From the NCBI GenBank assembly GCA_903897145.1, contig CAIUAN010000005.1:1-64000 (forward strand): a stretch of DNA of 64,000 nt, written 5' to 3'. The position numbers and the translations under genes are program-made. A model generated the notes under the pieces. The model did no database searches and was not told the DNA's origin. It saw nothing but the letters and a program-made list of their open reading frames with translations. Numbering within the stretch: the first letter of the stretch is position 1; each line of letters opens with the position of its first letter. The DNA is from an uncultured Bacteroidia bacterium (GTDB taxonomy: Bacteria; Bacteroidota; Bacteroidia; Bacteroidales; Prolixibacteraceae). Shown one piece after another: positions 42,211 through 50,250 of this stretch.

Positions 42211-42250
42211 TAAAAAACATTAGGCTTAAAGATACCTCTTTAAGCCTAAT
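42211..42250 (-). terminator. Rho-independent terminator of prfB
   Basis: A 12-bp perfect stem attaggcttaaa / tttaagcctaat with an 8-base loop; on the minus strand it is followed by GTTTTTTAATC. It lies between the prfB stop and the acs start. Confidence 0.88.
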
Positions 42251-42272
42251 AAAAAGGCAATATAAAATTTAA

Positions 42273-43965: not shown

Positions 43966-45441
43966 CTAGTTCTTTAATTTCTCAATCCGTTTAACCACTA
44001 ATTTTGAACTAATCATGGTAATTGGCAATCCGGTACCAGGCACTGTTGAGGCGCCGACATAGAAAACATTTTTAAATTTCTCGTCAAAGTTCTTAGGTCG
44101 GAAGGCCCCAATCTGAAACATTTTGTGGGATAATCCCAAACCGCTACCGCGATGCAAATTAAACTTGCTTTCCCAATCTATTGGAGAGTAGCTAGTTTTA
44201 GAGATGATCTCGGGAACAATATCCTGTCCAATTCGAGCCGAGAAATCAGCTATGATGCTATTCACAATAGCCTCTTTATCATCCCAATCTTTCTTGAATC
44301 TCAGATCGGGTACTGGACAAACGAAAAACAGAGTCTCACAGCCTTCAGGTGCACAATCAGCATTATTACGCGATAAAACATTGACATAATAATAGGGTTT
44401 TTCGAGTGTTCCTGACATCTGAAAGATTTTATTGGCATAATCTTTAAAATTATCACCAAGGTAATAGTTATGATGCTCTATTTGTGGAAGCTTGCACTTC
44501 AATCCAAGATAGATCGTCAATGGTCCCATGGTCCATTCCATCTTATCTAATTTAGCCTCAGAGAACTTGGCTCTTTTAAATATCTTACCTCTAAACGAGG
44601 CAGCATCGCTATTCACCACGATGATATCGCGCTGCCAATTCTTTCCATTTTGATCAACTAAGGCTTCTAATTTCTTACCACTTGCAAGGTAATCGACGAT
44701 TTCAGTATTGTAAGTGATCTTAACGTTTTCGTTCTGAAGCTCCCCAACAATACCCTCAACAATCTTATACATACCACCCTCAACATTATAATATCCATCA
44801 TGTTGGAATTCGGTATAGGATAGTAACGTATAGACAGCTGGAGTATCAAAAGGTGTCCGACCTAAGAAAAATGCCACGAGTGAGATGATTTCACGAGCGT
44901 CATCTGACGAGAAATAGCGACAAACTTGCTGCCAAAAGTTACGAAACAAGATCGGTAAATGTTTCGGATTTACCTTCATTAAGGTTATTAAATAGGAAAA
45001 TACAGAGTTATAATTGTCCTTGATAACGATATCTACCGTATCATCGAACAGTGATTTCCCGTTTTTAAGGTATTTATGCATTTTGACCTCAAAGTCAGGC
45101 TCGACATCTTTAAATTGTTCAGCTAACTTGTGAATGTCTTTGTAAAGTCGATAAGTCTTTGGGCTACGACTGAAGTTTACCGTATAAAGCGGATCAAGTT
45201 CAACATGTTTAAAAGGCAGTTCTATGTTGCAATCTTTTGCGAACTCCTTAAATTCATAGGACATGCTAAAAAAGCTCGGGCCGATATCGAAGGTAAAGCC
45301 ATCCTTTTTCAATTGATTAAGTCGACCTCCAGCCTGACTATTCTTTTCAATAATCTCGACATCATACCCTTTTTTAGCCAATCTTAGTGCGGTAGCAAGA
45401 CCTCCAAGTCCGGCGCCGACAATCAGTACACTTTTTCCCAT
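43966..45441 (-). CDS. crtI: Phytoene desaturase CrtI
   Basis: A 491-residue FAD-dependent enzyme that desaturates phytoene, most likely to lycopene. The N-terminal dinucleotide fold VLIVGAGLGGLATALRLAKKGYDVEIIEKNSQAGGRLNQLKKDGFTFDIGPSFFSM covers about residues 4-60, and the C-terminal CrtI-type signature is NVFYVGASTVPGTGLPITMISSKLV. It is associated with the inner membrane. It is the seventh gene in the carotenoid operon, two bases after the TPR gene. There is no second desaturase-like gene (CrtD) in the window, so 3',4'-desaturation is not accounted for here. Confidence 0.95.
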   Translation of the reverse strand: MGKSVLIVGAGLGGLATALRLAKKGYDVEIIEKNSQAGGRLNQLKKDGFTFDIGPSFFSMSYEFKEFAKDCNIELPFKHVELDPLYTVNFSRSPKTYRLYKDIHKLAEQFKDVEPDFEVKMHKYLKNGKSLFDDTVDIVIKDNYNSVFSYLITLMKVNPKHLPILFRNFWQQVCRYFSSDDAREIISLVAFFLGRTPFDTPAVYTLLSYTEFQHDGYYNVEGGMYKIVEGIVGELQNENVKITYNTEIVDYLASGKKLEALVDQNGKNWQRDIIVVNSDAASFRGKIFKRAKFSEAKLDKMEWTMGPLTIYLGLKCKLPQIEHHNYYLGDNFKDYANKIFQMSGTLEKPYYYVNVLSRNNADCAPEGCETLFFVCPVPDLRFKKDWDDKEAIVNSIIADFSARIGQDIVPEIISKTSYSPIDWESKFNLHRGSGLGLSHKMFQIGAFRPKNFDEKFKNVFYVGASTVPGTGLPITMISSKLVVKRIEKLKN

Positions 45442-45443
45442 TT

Positions 45444-46181
45444 TCAGTGTTTTATTTTTTTTATTAAATTCGGATACAACTTTATCTTAACATAATTGAA
45501 TTGAGGCTCAATCTTTAATATTTCCTCGTAACTATTTTGTGCTTTTTCTAAATAACCTATTGATTCATAAACATTTGCAATTGAAACCAGCAAGCTCAAA
45601 TAATTCCAATCCAAAAGCATTTCATCCCTATTTTGTTCTAATTTAAATCGGGCTTTCGTATAATTCTGAATGGCTTTTAACTTATCTCCACCCATCAGGC
45701 TTGGTGCATGATAATAAACATTTCCCAATTGAACATATCCAAAATAGTCTAACGAATCCAGAGAGACAGCCTCTTTGGCACAAGTTATACTTTTAGAACC
45801 ATATAAAGGAGCTGCAAACATGTTAAGACCAATATGAAAACCATAGAAGGCGGAGCGATAACTGCTAATTTTAGCTGCATACAATTTCTTATTTACAATT
45901 AAATTCAAATTCCCCTCAGCAAGAGAAAGATATTTATTAGCTTCATCTTTTCGATTTTCTCCAATGCACCAACCGATATAACCATATTGATAATTAAGCA
46001 ATTCAAGTTTACTTGAATCATCTTTTGCCCCTATTCCGTGCATCCGTTCAATAACAGACTTCCAATCTCCCATTGAGCTCGCAATAAAAGCTTTGTAGAT
46101 ATCACTCTTTGTGCTAGCAAAACTCGGGCTATAGACAAGCCAAGCAAGCACAAAAACTATCCAATATCGCGACCTTTCCAT
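45444..46181 (-). CDS. Exported TPR-repeat protein in the carotenoid operon
   Basis: A 245-residue protein with a signal peptide (WIVFVLAWLVYSPSFASTKS) and helical repeats. Two are TPR-like: DYFGYVQLGNVYYHAPSLMGGDKLKAIQNYTKARFKLE near 150-190 and LLVSIANVYESIGYLEKAQNSYEEILKIEPQF near 200-235. No catalytic motif is visible. Its start overlaps the glycosyltransferase by 25 bases and its end is two bases before crtI, so it is translated with the pathway. A scaffold or chaperone role for pigment enzymes or for placing the pigment in the envelope is possible, but I do not know a characterised homologue. This is the least explained member of the operon. Confidence 0.75.
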   Translation of the reverse strand: MERSRYWIVFVLAWLVYSPSFASTKSDIYKAFIASSMGDWKSVIERMHGIGAKDDSSKLELLNYQYGYIGWCIGENRKDEANKYLSLAEGNLNLIVNKKLYAAKISSYRSAFYGFHIGLNMFAAPLYGSKSITCAKEAVSLDSLDYFGYVQLGNVYYHAPSLMGGDKLKAIQNYTKARFKLEQNRDEMLLDWNYLSLLVSIANVYESIGYLEKAQNSYEEILKIEPQFNYVKIKLYPNLIKKIKH

Positions 46182-47248
46182 AGAAAACCCGTAAAAAATT
46201 TCGACCTAAATGCGAGAATTAAAATAATCCCAATATTTAATTGCTGTGGAATCAGATAAATAATGTTATTCAAAATATTCTGATTGCTAGCTATTGAAAC
46301 TAGTACTCGCGTAATAATTAATATAACAAGATAAGCCATGGAAAGTTTGATTCCAAATGAAATAAAGATTGGAATAAATCCCCATGTAGTAATAAACCAG
46401 AAAAGCATAGAAACAACAAACGATCCTCCAAAAAATTCAGTCAAATTTTTCGAAAAGCCTTTAATCGAATCTTTGTAACCTTTATACATTCGGCACCGAA
46501 TAGAACCATCCCCTAGCAAGCAGGCTATCGAAACCTTAGCCGATTTATAATAACGAGCAATCGCAATATCTTCCACCTTATTACCCTTCTCTTTCTCATG
46601 CGGGTTTAAAAGCTTATACGTAGCCGAATTAAACAACATAAACTGTCCGTTTGCAGCTGCCAGAGAGGCAAATTTCAATTGTTGCACCAACGGAAGAGGA
46701 AGAAGTGTTAAAAGAATATAGTTCATAATTGGCACGGTAATCCTCTCTCCAATGCCGTGCATCTCTTGTTTCGGAAAAATAGTTAATAGTCCAAGATTTT
46801 TCTTTTGCATCCAATCAACAGCTGAACGAATAAATCCAGGTTTAATCCGAACGTCAGCATCCAAAAACAAGAAGTGATTACCCCGAGCCTGGTGAGATAA
46901 GCTATAACAAGCAAAATTTTTACCCAGCCAACCTTTTGGAAGATTTGTGGATTGAATCAGTTTGATTCGAGAATCATCCTTCGCAAACTGAGCAACGACG
47001 GCTGCAGTTTGATCATCTGAATCATCATCAAGAACTAAGATCTCCATATTAGCATCTTTAGACTCGACAAGATCACTCAAAAGCCGAGCAATATTATCCT
47101 CTTCATTACGCGCAGGGATTAAGATTGAAATCAAAGAATCGGAAGTAGGCAGGCCAATAGGAATATTCGTCCTAAAGATTGCATTAGATAACGCTACGCT
47201 AAATTGAATTAGCGCAAAACCCACTGCGATTAAAGACAAAATCATCAT
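46157..47248 (-). CDS. Glycosyltransferase family 2, probable carotenoid glycosyltransferase
   Basis: A 363-residue membrane protein. One N-terminal helix precedes a GT-A domain: SILIPARNEEDNIARLLSDL, ILVLDDDSDDQTAAVV, the LPKGWLGKNFACYSLSHQARG segment and the DAD metal site in LFLDADVRIKP (about residues 125-135), then three to four C-terminal helices. This layout, including the GW.GK..AC stretch, is that of CrtQ and CruG/CruC-type carotenoid glycosyltransferases and of HpnB-like proteins. Given CruF next to it, transfer of a sugar to a carotenoid hydroxyl is the best guess; the sugar is unknown. It overlaps the acyltransferase by 4 bases and the TPR gene by 25. Confidence 0.82.
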   Translation of the reverse strand: MMILSLIAVGFALIQFSVALSNAIFRTNIPIGLPTSDSLISILIPARNEEDNIARLLSDLVESKDANMEILVLDDDSDDQTAAVVAQFAKDDSRIKLIQSTNLPKGWLGKNFACYSLSHQARGNHFLFLDADVRIKPGFIRSAVDWMQKKNLGLLTIFPKQEMHGIGERITVPIMNYILLTLLPLPLVQQLKFASLAAANGQFMLFNSATYKLLNPHEKEKGNKVEDIAIARYYKSAKVSIACLLGDGSIRCRMYKGYKDSIKGFSKNLTEFFGGSFVVSMLFWFITTWGFIPIFISFGIKLSMAYLVILIITRVLVSIASNQNILNNIIYLIPQQLNIGIILILAFRSKFFTGFLWKGRDIG

Positions 47249-47874
47249 TGGTCTTGGTGCTTTAAGGCATTATTATGAACACATTCATTGAAGAATAAAT
47301 TATAGGCTTGATTGAGTGATTGAGCATCTAATTTAGCCTCAGTATATTCGGATACATACATGTAAATACCGGGCTTTCGGCTAGAAAAATAATCAACAAG
47401 ATTGACCATAAACAGAATCTGAATAGGTGTCTTCGCCGCAGACAGAATTCGCCCTATCCCCCCTTCAAATTGAATCTCCTTTTTATAGGAGGTTTCTATT
47501 TTTCCCTGAGGAAAAAGCAGCACCATATTCTGCTTTTCAGAGAGTATTTCAACCGTATAATTAATCGATTCGATCAAGCTTCTTGAGTTCTTACGAACCG
47601 AAAATCCACCTGTCTGATTAAAAAATGAGAATTTTTTCAATTGTTCTTCGAGCATCATAAAATGGAACTTACGCTTAAGAACGTTCACATTAAAATACAT
47701 GGCAAAAAAACCATCCCACCAACTAAAGTGATTCGCCAATAAAATAACGGGAGCTCCTTTTTCCACGTAATTTTCGATCACTTGCACTTGTCCAAAATGC
47801 CTTTTGATAATCCACCCTGCATAGAACTTAAAAAAGGGATATATCAAAAAATGATGTCGGGCTTTAAGGAGCAT
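47245..47874 (-). CDS. PlsC-type acyltransferase, probable carotenoid glycoside acyltransferase
   Basis: A 209-residue 1-acyl-glycerol-phosphate acyltransferase-fold protein. The catalytic NHFSWWDGFF is the H-x4-D motif, in LLANHFSWWDGFF; FPQGKIE is the substrate motif and TPIQILFMVN the later block. Its size and place fit CruD/CrtO-like enzymes that put a fatty acid on the sugar of carotenoid glycosides, though a general phospholipid role is possible. The track starts at a GTG 17 codons upstream inside cruF; the ATG at 47874 gives MLLKARHHFLIYPFFKFYAGW, the usual N-terminus for such proteins, and a 5-base gap after cruF. Confidence 0.82.
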   Translation of the reverse strand: MLLKARHHFLIYPFFKFYAGWIIKRHFGQVQVIENYVEKGAPVILLANHFSWWDGFFAMYFNVNVLKRKFHFMMLEEQLKKFSFFNQTGGFSVRKNSRSLIESINYTVEILSEKQNMVLLFPQGKIETSYKKEIQFEGGIGRILSAAKTPIQILFMVNLVDYFSSRKPGIYMYVSEYTEAKLDAQSLNQAYNLFFNECVHNNALKHQDQ

Positions 47875-47879
47875 AGATT

Positions 47880-48533
47880 CTATTTGATGAGGATTAGAAT
47901 AGCAACAAAGAAAACAAATTGACACACAAATATCACGGAAGCAACAGAGTTATCAGACTTGATTTTCATCAGTTTTAAAATGGCCTGAAACAGTAATGCA
48001 ATAATAAACCAGTCCAAATAATTTTTAAATGGAACAACACCTTGATCCCATGACCACATTTTTAATAAGGGGGCTACTTGTTCTAAAACCAAATCATAGA
48101 CAACCATCATTCCAGAAGCAACCAAAACGGAAAGCCAATTATCGCCAAAAACCTTTTGAGTTAAGGAGGCACTGCTATAAACAAGCATAACCCAATTGAG
48201 ACCAATCAGCAAGGGCGTGTTTAACACCTTAATCCCCAAAGCTTCACCATAATTATACGATCCAAAAATTTGGTGAGTATTTACACCAATCACTTCAAAT
48301 AAAATACTGAGGAAGAAAATAAGAGTAAAACCCGCTATGACTCGCCCTGAAAACACAGAACTATCGCAAAGCAGCATGGTTAAAAAACTCAAGACTAAAG
48401 CAAATGGGAATAATGCGATAAAAAGAGTTTGGGAAGTTGCTATACCGATTACTCCGACAATGTAAAACAAGATTACTACACCAATTACGTGCAGTTTATA
48501 TTGCTTTAAATAGTTGGAAATAGAATCAATCAT
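47880..48533 (-). CDS. cruF: CruF-type carotenoid 1',2'-hydratase (DUF422)
   Basis: A 217-residue membrane protein with seven to eight helices. It carries the CruF/DUF422 marks: FEVIGVNTHQIFGSYNYGEALGIKVLNTPLLIGLNWVMLVYSS, and further on MMVVYDLVLEQVAPLLKMWSWDQG, with conserved acidic residues in membrane helices. The family adds water across the terminal double bond of acyclic (psi) carotenoid ends, giving a 1'-hydroxyl, and occurs in myxol, bacterioruberin and salinixanthin-type pathways. The next gene downstream is the acyltransferase. It is 11 bases after the cyclase gene. Confidence 0.88.
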   Translation of the reverse strand: MIDSISNYLKQYKLHVIGVVILFYIVGVIGIATSQTLFIALFPFALVLSFLTMLLCDSSVFSGRVIAGFTLIFFLSILFEVIGVNTHQIFGSYNYGEALGIKVLNTPLLIGLNWVMLVYSSASLTQKVFGDNWLSVLVASGMMVVYDLVLEQVAPLLKMWSWDQGVVPFKNYLDWFIIALLFQAILKLMKIKSDNSVASVIFVCQFVFFVAILILIK

Positions 48534-48544
48534 AACTTTATAAA

Positions 48545-49246
48545 TTATTCACTTAAAGATTTTCGATTAAACCAAATAACCAATCGATTGACAACAATAA
48601 GGTTAAGCAAAATCAAGCTAAATGCATAACTAATATCTTCAACTGGAACTGTGCCGATTCTAATCCCAAGATTTTGCGCGTTGTTATACCATACCACTGG
48701 TTCGGCGATAAAGCTACCAGTCAAGACCGAATTAACCAAGAAAAATGGGATTAAGATGACACAAAAAGTAAAATAATAACGACGAAGCATTTCGAATTCA
48801 CGGAGCCAAGCCCAAATTATTGAGATTATAGCTACTGAAAGGTATATTGAAGTATAGGCTTTATTGAGATTAGAAATTACCAAAGCGAGTAAGCCAATAA
48901 TGAGAACTATATTGAGCACTTGAGTAGACAAACGGCTCAAGCGAACCTTTGGAAAGAGATAAATCAGGGTATCGTGCAAGAATATGCTTGCATAAGGGAT
49001 GACGATAAAAAACAGACACTCCTCTAGTGGGAGATTAAAGATCAGGATACCAGAATGATATTTTTGATTAAATCCCCAAAAACCAGATTTTGTAAACCAA
49101 ACATCACCTAACACATAAAAGATACCAACAAAAATAAGAGATAGTCCAACAACTTTTAACTTCGGATAAAAATTCAATTTACGGTCGTAGCTATACAACA
49201 ATGGGATAATGATGGTTAGAATTTCAAGAGCCAAATAAACAGACAT
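48545..49246 (-). CDS. crtYcd: Lycopene cyclase, fused CrtYc-CrtYd type
   Basis: A 233-residue protein with seven predicted helices made of two related halves. Each half holds the hallmark acidic motif: PLEECLFF at residues 73-80 and PVEDISYAF at 201-209. In actinobacteria the two halves are separate genes (crtYc and crtYd); here they are one chain, as in several Bacteroidota, haloarchaea and fungi. It should convert a psi end of lycopene to a beta ring, giving gamma- or beta-carotene. It lies between crtB (11 bases) and cruF (11 bases). Confidence 0.9.
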   Translation of the reverse strand: MSVYLALEILTIIIPLLYSYDRKLNFYPKLKVVGLSLIFVGIFYVLGDVWFTKSGFWGFNQKYHSGILIFNLPLEECLFFIVIPYASIFLHDTLIYLFPKVRLSRLSTQVLNIVLIIGLLALVISNLNKAYTSIYLSVAIISIIWAWLREFEMLRRYYFTFCVILIPFFLVNSVLTGSFIAEPVVWYNNAQNLGIRIGTVPVEDISYAFSLILLNLIVVNRLVIWFNRKSLSE

Positions 49247-49257
49247 AATCGTGCTAC

Positions 49258-50103
49258 TTAAATCATTTTTAGCTTATGAACAATAATTGCCTTGATAAGC
49301 AGAATAGTTTTTCTAAATCCAGAGACACTTACTCGACCAGCCAGAACCTGAGAAGCAGAAGTATTTTTAAGCAAGACGACCAACCGCTGATAGTAATAGT
49401 AAGCGATTAAAACGGCCAGCTGTGAATTGAAGGGCAATTTTAGAATTCCCAAACGAGCAGATTTAAAATCTTGCTCAATATCTTTTATGATCGTCAATTT
49501 CATTTCATCATCAAAAGTTCCTTGTCCCATCTCAGGGAAATATTGACGCTCCAAAAATTCGGTATCACTGCGTAGATCACGCAAAAAATTAACTTTCTGA
49601 AAAGCAGAACCTAAGCGCATTGCTGGATCTTTTAATGACTCAAACATCTGACGATCTCCATTTGTGAATACCGACAAACACATCAATCCGACTACATCGG
49701 CTGATCCATAAATGTAAAGATCGATCTCCGACTTGGTCGTATATTTTGTTTTATGCAAATCAGATCGCATGCTAAATAGGAAAGCCTGAATCAGATCATC
49801 CGAAATGGAATATTTCTTTACGGTTAATTGAAAAGAGTGGAGCACAAGATTTAGGCTCACCCCATTTTTAAATGCTTCGTAGTAATCCGCTTCAAATTTA
49901 TCCAATAATGTCTCCTTGTCGTGCAGCAGAAAGGTGTCGACAATTTCATCGGCAAGTCGAACGAAGCCATAAATACTGTGAATAGCCATCTGAACTTCCT
50001 TGTCAAGAAAGCTAACAGCAATAGAGAAGGAAGTACTGTAGTTGCGAGTAACTAGCTTACTTACCTTGAAAGAAACTTGATCGTAAAGTGGGTCTGTATC
50101 CAT
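49258..50103 (-). CDS. crtB: Phytoene synthase CrtB
   Basis: A 281-residue enzyme joining two geranylgeranyl diphosphates to phytoene. Both aspartate-rich sites are visible: ADEIVD (Asp52, Asp56) and FLRDLRSDTEFLERQYFP (Asp176, Asp180), with GSADVVGLMCL between. The protein start MDTDPLYDQVSFKVSKLVTRNYSTSFS is the usual one, so I use the ATG at 50103; the track ORF begins eight codons earlier at 50127, also an ATG. It is the first gene of the operon crtB-crtYcd-cruF-AT-GT-TPR-crtI. No geranylgeranyl diphosphate synthase is present in the window. Confidence 0.94.
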   Translation of the reverse strand: MDTDPLYDQVSFKVSKLVTRNYSTSFSIAVSFLDKEVQMAIHSIYGFVRLADEIVDTFLLHDKETLLDKFEADYYEAFKNGVSLNLVLHSFQLTVKKYSISDDLIQAFLFSMRSDLHKTKYTTKSEIDLYIYGSADVVGLMCLSVFTNGDRQMFESLKDPAMRLGSAFQKVNFLRDLRSDTEFLERQYFPEMGQGTFDDEMKLTIIKDIEQDFKSARLGILKLPFNSQLAVLIAYYYYQRLVVLLKNTSASQVLAGRVSVSGFRKTILLIKAIIVHKLKMI

Positions 50104-50250
50104 CTCTCTTAAACTAAAAATACACATTTCATGCTTTAATAAAACAATGAAATCGATTAATTGTTTTTCAATAAAAAAACCAATTAAGTCTTAAACTAAA
50201 TTAGGAAATTTAATCGAGAAAAAAGAATCTAGAAAAAGAGCATTTCAAAT

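Follow-up and report, generated by a model that had tools for sequence, protein, structure and literature searches.

A compact Bacteroidales operon predicted to make an acylated carotenoid glycoside

Salinixanthin is the 4-keto, 3',4'-didehydro relative of OH-γ-carotene glucoside ester. The latter occurs as a pigment in Roseiflexus and Chloroflexus (PMC10432797), and salinixanthin is the monocyclic acylated glucoside of Salinibacter and Rhodothermus, the second of which has a CrtO ketolase, no CruF that could be found, and a CruC encoded apart from its carotenoid cluster (PMC5822342). Some of the individual steps have been reconstituted: CruF together with crtY gives 1'-hydroxy-γ-carotene in Escherichia coli (PMC11855829), and a cruF-linked glycosyltransferase glucosylates the CruF hydroxyl, with CruF and the glycosyltransferase proven in the same host (PMC8502411). 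Here, we describe an operon predicted to make a pigment of this kind in a 64,000-nucleotide stretch of DNA (the window; positions 1 to 64,000 of contig CAIUAN010000005.1, assembly GCA_903897145.1) from an uncultured Bacteroidales bacterium from a lake. Its genome carries the working label G000; L-numbers denote loci and G-numbers the genomes compared.

The operon resembles the pathway of Chloroflexus and Roseiflexus (PMC10432797) in that the same kind of molecule is predicted, with the same backbone, 1'-hydroxyl, sugar and fatty acid, but it comes from another phylum, is packed into one compact unit with an additional TPR gene, and probably yields a 4-keto product. The 4-keto ring would be shared with salinixanthin (PMC5822342) through a CrtW homologue encoded elsewhere in the genome, in which, unlike in the salinixanthin producers, neither a 3',4'-desaturase nor a rhodopsin was found. 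The myxol and flexixanthin clusters of Nonlabens (PMC11855829) and Algoriphagus (PMC10784355) have crtB, crtI, CrtY or CrtYcd, and cruF in common with it, as well as CrtW in Algoriphagus, but contain crtD and crtZ and no glycosyltransferase or acyltransferase among the reported genes, and the flavobacterial CrtI belongs to a different clade. The Planococcus cluster for a glycosyl carotenoid (PMC8502411) likewise keeps cruF, a glycosyltransferase and an acyltransferase gene together, but builds on a C30 backbone with CrtM/CrtN and has no cyclase. Thus, the chemistry is already known; what is new is the operon, together with its lineage, its CrtI clade and its TPR partner. In the open-access literature that we searched, carotenoid genes of Bacteroidales are almost unmentioned, which does not in itself prove that the operon is undescribed.

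Composition and distribution of the operon

Seven open reading frames are packed on the minus strand at 43966–50103 in the order crtB–crtYcd–cruF–acyltransferase (AT)–GT2–TPR–crtI (Table 1). A sequence-only reading had proposed these genes, and all of them were found at the place, on the strand and in the order claimed, with their families confirmed by Pfam and NCBIfam. Its core pathway, from lycopene through one beta ring, a CruF-derived 1'-hydroxyl, a sugar and an acyl chain, fits the family assignments and the neighborhood; of two further details, a "CrtO-like" acyltransferase is unsupported and a "less modified" pigment is probably wrong for the ring, as described below. In our view, an acylated carotenoid glycoside is the likely product of the operon, and the molecule predicted is a 1'-hydroxy-γ-carotene glycoside ester, probably with a 4-keto group.

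In the scheme that we propose, each reaction, the step order, the sugar, the site of acylation and the role of the TPR protein are predicted from gene families, motifs, conservation and genome content. CrtB would convert geranylgeranyl diphosphate (GGPP), made elsewhere and best attributed to a candidate prenyl synthase on contig C26, to phytoene, and CrtI would desaturate phytoene to lycopene. CrtYcd would then close one end to a beta ring, giving γ-carotene, and CruF would add water to the psi end, giving 1'-hydroxy-γ-carotene. GT2 would transfer a sugar onto the tertiary 1'-hydroxyl, and the LPLAT-type acyltransferase would esterify a fatty acid to that sugar. With the 4-keto group that CrtW, encoded on contig C18, would place on the ring, the product would correspond to salinixanthin minus the 3',4' double bond. 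Such a pigment would sit in a membrane, its sugar and acyl chain both on the same side, and may add rigidity there and quench reactive oxygen. The TPR protein may be an exported helper that binds or moves the pigment or scaffolds the last enzymes.

Scanning genome contigs for CrtYcd recovered the same gene order in metagenome-assembled genomes (MAGs) of Bacteroidales and a variant in the isolate Saccharicrinis aurantiacus. Saccharicrinis has no GT or AT, and a free hydroxy-carotenoid would be its predicted product. The arrangement in the window is not due to chance, since many Bacteroidales share the order and conserve the catalytic motifs. In several Bacteroidales loci, crtB and crtYcd are separated by an isopentenyl diphosphate-isomerase-like Nudix gene (idi), crtZ or both. 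Neither gene stands at this position in the window or in the relatives nearest to it (L007–L013), and L014 has idi only. Flavobacterial loci are ordered crtI–crtB–crtZ–crtYcd instead.

Searching 393 Bacteroidales genomes with a profile of the TPR protein gave matches in 116. The 100 regions that we fetched lie nearly all around such matches, so that counts from them are conditional on the TPR gene and not unbiased frequencies. On this basis, cruF lies within 5 kb of the TPR gene in 55 of 97 TPR loci, GT2 is directly upstream of it in 48 of the 97, and cruF, AT and GT2 share one locus in 52 genomes from 33 families, in three gene orders among the loci examined. These three genes are the most conserved part of the operon. 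They occur in window-type operons, in window-type operons without crtYcd, at times with a lipocalin gene in its place, and in split operons, where crtB–crtI faces CrtI2–cruF–(crtW)–AT–GT2–TPR. The lipocalin lipoprotein gene, possibly for a carotenoid-binding protein, occupies the crtYcd position between idi and cruF in L141, L142, L144 and L145; PF08212 was assigned for L141 by Pfam scan, and L142 and L145 are alike by sequence.

Predicted desaturation, cyclization, hydration and ketolation

CrtB matches PF00494 in Pfam (E 9e-40), keeps the DEIVD and second Asp motifs in alignment with its relatives, shares 46-58% identity with CrtB from the crt operons of flavobacteria, and is the only SQS_PSY member of the genome. 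Its substrate could come from either of two prenyl synthases, on contigs C26 and C55. A crtE-like gene directly after crtI in L073 shares 41% identity with the first and 28% with the second, making the C26 enzyme the best candidate for a GGPP synthase.

CrtI scores 329 bits against TIGR02734 (NCBIfam cut-off 238) and is the single CrtI-family gene above cut-off in the genome. Its best-scoring NCBIfam model is NF058655, the bifunctional phytoene/3,4-desaturase, which would suit an enzyme that also adds the 3',4' double bond and so gives a true salinixanthin-type (torulene) chromophore. We regard this as unlikely, because the score of 330 bits is far from the cut-off of 640, a flavobacterial CrtI from a separate clade reaches 733 bits with the same model, and split operons place a second enzyme next to cruF. 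A tree of 42 CrtI sequences joins window-type CrtI in one clade to the copies next to crtB in split operons, while CrtI2, next to cruF, falls into another; CrtI of flavobacterial type occupies the crtB-adjacent slot in two genomes. As several of the tree's deep branches are long and poorly supported, our reading relies on clade membership and gene position rather than on the deep branching. Since its relatives pair with crtB while the clade of CrtD candidates pairs with cruF, the operon CrtI is most plausibly the phytoene desaturase. We rejected it as a CrtD on the same grounds of clade and position, and because it is the only CrtI-family gene above cut-off in the genome. No CrtD candidate, that is, no second CrtI-family gene above cut-off, was found in G000, so that with the sole member read as phytoene desaturase, the 3',4'-desaturase is missing from this genome.

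Other CrtI-family genes occur in related genomes. In a second locus of sister genomes G003, G004 and G006 (L087, L088 and L089), a CrtI-family gene scoring above 500 bits pairs with an apparent carotenoid-cleavage oxygenase and a small protein near a TonB-type receptor gene. In G012 (L090), a CrtI-family gene lies beside an apparently different squalene/phytoene-synthase-like gene, away from the crt operon.

CrtYcd matches PF18916 in two stretches (Pfam; E 3e-35, 121 bits) and TIGR03462 with two tandem half-domains above cut-off (98 bits), as in a fused c+d cyclase, and its PLEE and PVED motifs are mostly conserved. It is predicted to close a beta ring at one end only. Closure of both ends would make β-carotene, echinenone or canthaxanthin the main pigment and leave CruF, GT2 and AT a minor share of the flux; flavobacterial CrtYcd proteins (38-50% identity), which sit in crtI–crtB–crtZ–crtYcd loci with no cruF match, would be compatible with this. 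However, the window has cruF–AT–GT2, the best-conserved genes, in the same operon, and bacteria that make monocyclic pigments combine CrtY-type cyclases with CruF (PMC10784355, PMC11855829), which makes closure at both ends improbable. CruF itself matches PF04240 (Pfam; E 1.7e-23, 84 bits against a cut-off of 25) and reaches 60 bits against the haloarchaeal equivalog TIGR03460, a model named for bisanhydrobacterioruberin hydratase with a cut-off of 154.7.

For the ring, the sequence-only reading had noted that CrtE, CrtD, CrtZ and CrtW are lacking. This holds for the window, and genome-wide crtZ and crtD are missing as well, in line with its gene set, but a crtW homologue and a gene resembling GGPP synthase are present in the genome. 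The absence of crtZ extends to G001, G002, G003, G005 and G007, in a search of 18 genomes with 10 positives. Found among the members of the fatty-acid desaturase family, the crtW-type ketolase (223 aa) lies on contig C18 at 25.6-26.3 kb (L217:1141-1812; L220:8593-9264). It scores 207 bits against NF045690 (E 2.9e-61; cut-off 350), with the next family at 37 bits, and its iron-ligand motifs HDAMH, HxxHH and HxxHH are intact. The contig fits the window both in GC content (40.0% and 39.5%, respectively) and in tetranucleotide profile. Moreover, homologues 52-59% identical to it lie downstream of cruF in L175, L192, L179, L170, L190, L178 and L117, in each case preceding AT except in L178, where the locus lacks AT and GT2 and the homologue lies between cruF and the TPR gene; in the window-type operon L154, a homologue (47%) immediately follows crtI. 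A 4-keto ring is likely, given a CrtW in the organism's own genome with homologues inside Bacteroidales crt operons. CrtW requires oxygen, and the haem-copper oxidase genes of this genome suggest that the organism encounters it. The pigment thus probably carries a 4-keto group on its ring through this CrtW, and the earlier expectation of a less modified product is probably wrong for the ring.

An unketolated 1'-hydroxy-γ-carotene glycoside ester, with CrtW inactive on the product or acting on other carotenoids, is a less probable end point that still deserves some weight. The gene is unlinked to the operon, on another contig between rhodanese/arsenic genes and an acyl-CoA synthetase gene, and its score lies well under the cut-off; the plain ester is also produced by Roseiflexus and Chloroflexus (PMC10432797). 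The homologues within the seven Bacteroidales operons and directly after crtI in the eighth speak for the ketolated product. In the sister genome G001, blind sampling covering part of the genome gave no crtW. No rhodopsin (PF01036) was found in G000; the sole positive was a Polaribacter MAG (G018), and the named control genomes were also without a match. Apart from these genes, contig C40 of G000 (L215) encodes a 792-aa protein in which fatty-acid desaturase, Rieske ferredoxin and NqrF-like reductase domains are fused.

Glycosyltransferase, acyltransferase and TPR protein

GT2 matches PF00535 (Pfam; E 2.5e-20, 73 bits), and its DAD, VED and WKGR motifs are conserved in relatives, giving the DxD and ED signature of the GT-A type. 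Its top NCBIfam match is the 2'-O-glycosyltransferase CruG (NF045692; 102 bits, far under the cut-off of 600). The acyltransferase matches PF01553 (LPLAT; E 3.8e-13), the only acyltransferase family found for it in Pfam, and its NHx4D and FPQG motifs are invariant across 12 relatives. These are features of the LPLAT/PlsC type and leave a CrtO-like enzyme in the staphylococcal sense unsupported. A sequence-profile search of solved structures gave no match for it.

Several observations weigh against a carotenoid role for these genes or against the pathway as a whole, in addition to the unlinked crtW. CruF, GT2 and CrtW all stay below their NCBIfam equivalog cut-offs, and AT matches no curated equivalog; GT2 is almost as near to the hopanoid-associated HpnB as to CruG; and AT–GT2–TPR outlasts the carotenoid genes in the one-contig genome G332 (L121), in which no crtB or cruF was found and the AT motifs are intact, so that another lipid substrate is possible. 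GT2, AT and the TPR protein could then serve a hopanoid-like lipid or another glycolipid and merely be co-transcribed with carotenoid genes, as distant TPR homologues in genomes where no crtB and no cruF were found might also suggest. We hold this for the least probable of the alternatives. The G332 genes lie at a site that looks equivalent to the cruF–AT–GT2–TPR site of its congener G254, and the G332 GT2 has lost both DAD and VED, which looks like decay and is expected if its substrate was a carotenoid. Moreover, GT2 and AT accompany cruF across the three gene orders. Thus, GT2 and AT likely work on the carotenoid, as gene linkage indicates and as the natural test in G332 agrees in part. A supposed further trio of AT–GT2–TPR without carotenoid genes, L198, was rejected since crtW lies upstream.

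The TPR gene, which the sequence-only reading listed without giving it a part, is co-conserved with the operon and belongs to the conserved unit. Its AlphaFold model is all-helical (mean pLDDT 90) with an N-terminal signal or anchor, and its Pfam matches to TPR_2/TPR_8 are weak. Foldseek returned mostly generic TPR proteins, and also HusA and the bacterial sterol transporter 7t1s (TM about 0.5); HusA matches by sequence profile as well (E 1.5e-4). Like the sterol protein BstC (PMC10942540; 7t1s) and HusA (6bqs, PMC6173696), the TPR protein would be exported with a helical TPR-like fold, but these matches are weak, and no carotenoid binding is known for either protein. A function as lipid carrier is no more than a suggestion. 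On the tentative side, the TPR protein may serve carotenoid glycolipids as a dedicated carrier or scaffold in the periplasm, and cruF–AT–GT2–TPR may be an order-wide module of Bacteroidales by which acylated carotenoid glycosides are made and placed in the envelope, also in many lineages for which no pigment is known.

A strictly carotenoid-specific TPR gene was rejected, since homologues occur in genomes where neither crtB nor cruF was found, and also near unrelated genes such as prmA and uvrB. Free-standing homologues adjoin prmA in L124, L129 and similar loci of several Bacteroidales families. These do not start with MER..Y, as the window protein does, whose start codon region sits inside the GT2 3' end. 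GT2 is absent from L062 and L135, yet the shifted frame under the TPR start there, read by eye, gives WKDRNIS-stop and WKGRNIL-stop, remnants that match the conserved GT2 C-terminus WKGR.I. Together with the different start of free-standing homologues, this fossil suggests that GT2 was probably lost and the TPR gene kept in these two loci.

Locus layout and meaning for the Bacteroidales

The genes are separated by 2 bases between crtI and TPR and by 11 at both cruF/crtYcd and crtYcd/crtB; TPR and GT2 overlap by 25 bases and GT2 and AT by 4. The gap between AT and cruF is 5 bases with the AT start taken from relatives, the mechanical open reading frame beginning earlier at a GTG. On the same strand, kup lies upstream, and recX and prfB lie downstream, flanks that are also present in the close lake-metagenome relatives L007 (Loclat) and L008 (Lac Pavin). 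Upstream of crtB, no match to the Bacteroidota promoter consensus was found; the half-sites of an inverted repeat there are mostly kept in seven aligned sequences (the window and six relatives) and may form an operator. Scans for sigma-70 promoters and terminators stayed near chance level, except for a strong hairpin at 42218–42251 beyond prfB.

Table 1. Features of the carotenoid operon in the window
Feature	Position	Strand	Details
crtB, phytoene synthase (predicted)	49258..50103	-	281 aa from ATG 50103; ORF extendable to 50127
crtYcd, fused heterodimer-type lycopene beta-cyclase (predicted)	48545..49246	-	233 aa
cruF, carotenoid 1',2'-hydratase (predicted)	47880..48533	-	217 aa
LPLAT/PlsC-type acyltransferase, likely sugar-acylating	47245..47874	-	209 aa; mechanical ORF to 47925
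GT2 glycosyltransferase, CruG/HpnB-like, likely acts on 1'-OH	46157..47248	-	363 aa
TPR-fold protein, N-terminal signal/anchor	45444..46181	-	245 aa
crtI, phytoene desaturase (predicted), distinct Bacteroidales clade	43966..45441	-	491 aa
GT2/TPR overlap	46157..46181	-	DNA shared by GT2 C-terminus WKGRDIG and TPR N-terminus MERSRY
Region between kup and crtB with putative regulatory site	50104..50250	-	inverted repeat AAACA-N15-TGTTT

The operon offers a compact candidate gene set for acylated carotenoid glycosides, for which Rhodothermus, a classic producer, is genetically incomplete in the late steps, with no hydratase gene found. Its distribution suggests that acylated carotenoid glycosides are spread through the Bacteroidales, and it names the TPR gene as an operon member that no known carotenoid pathway explains.

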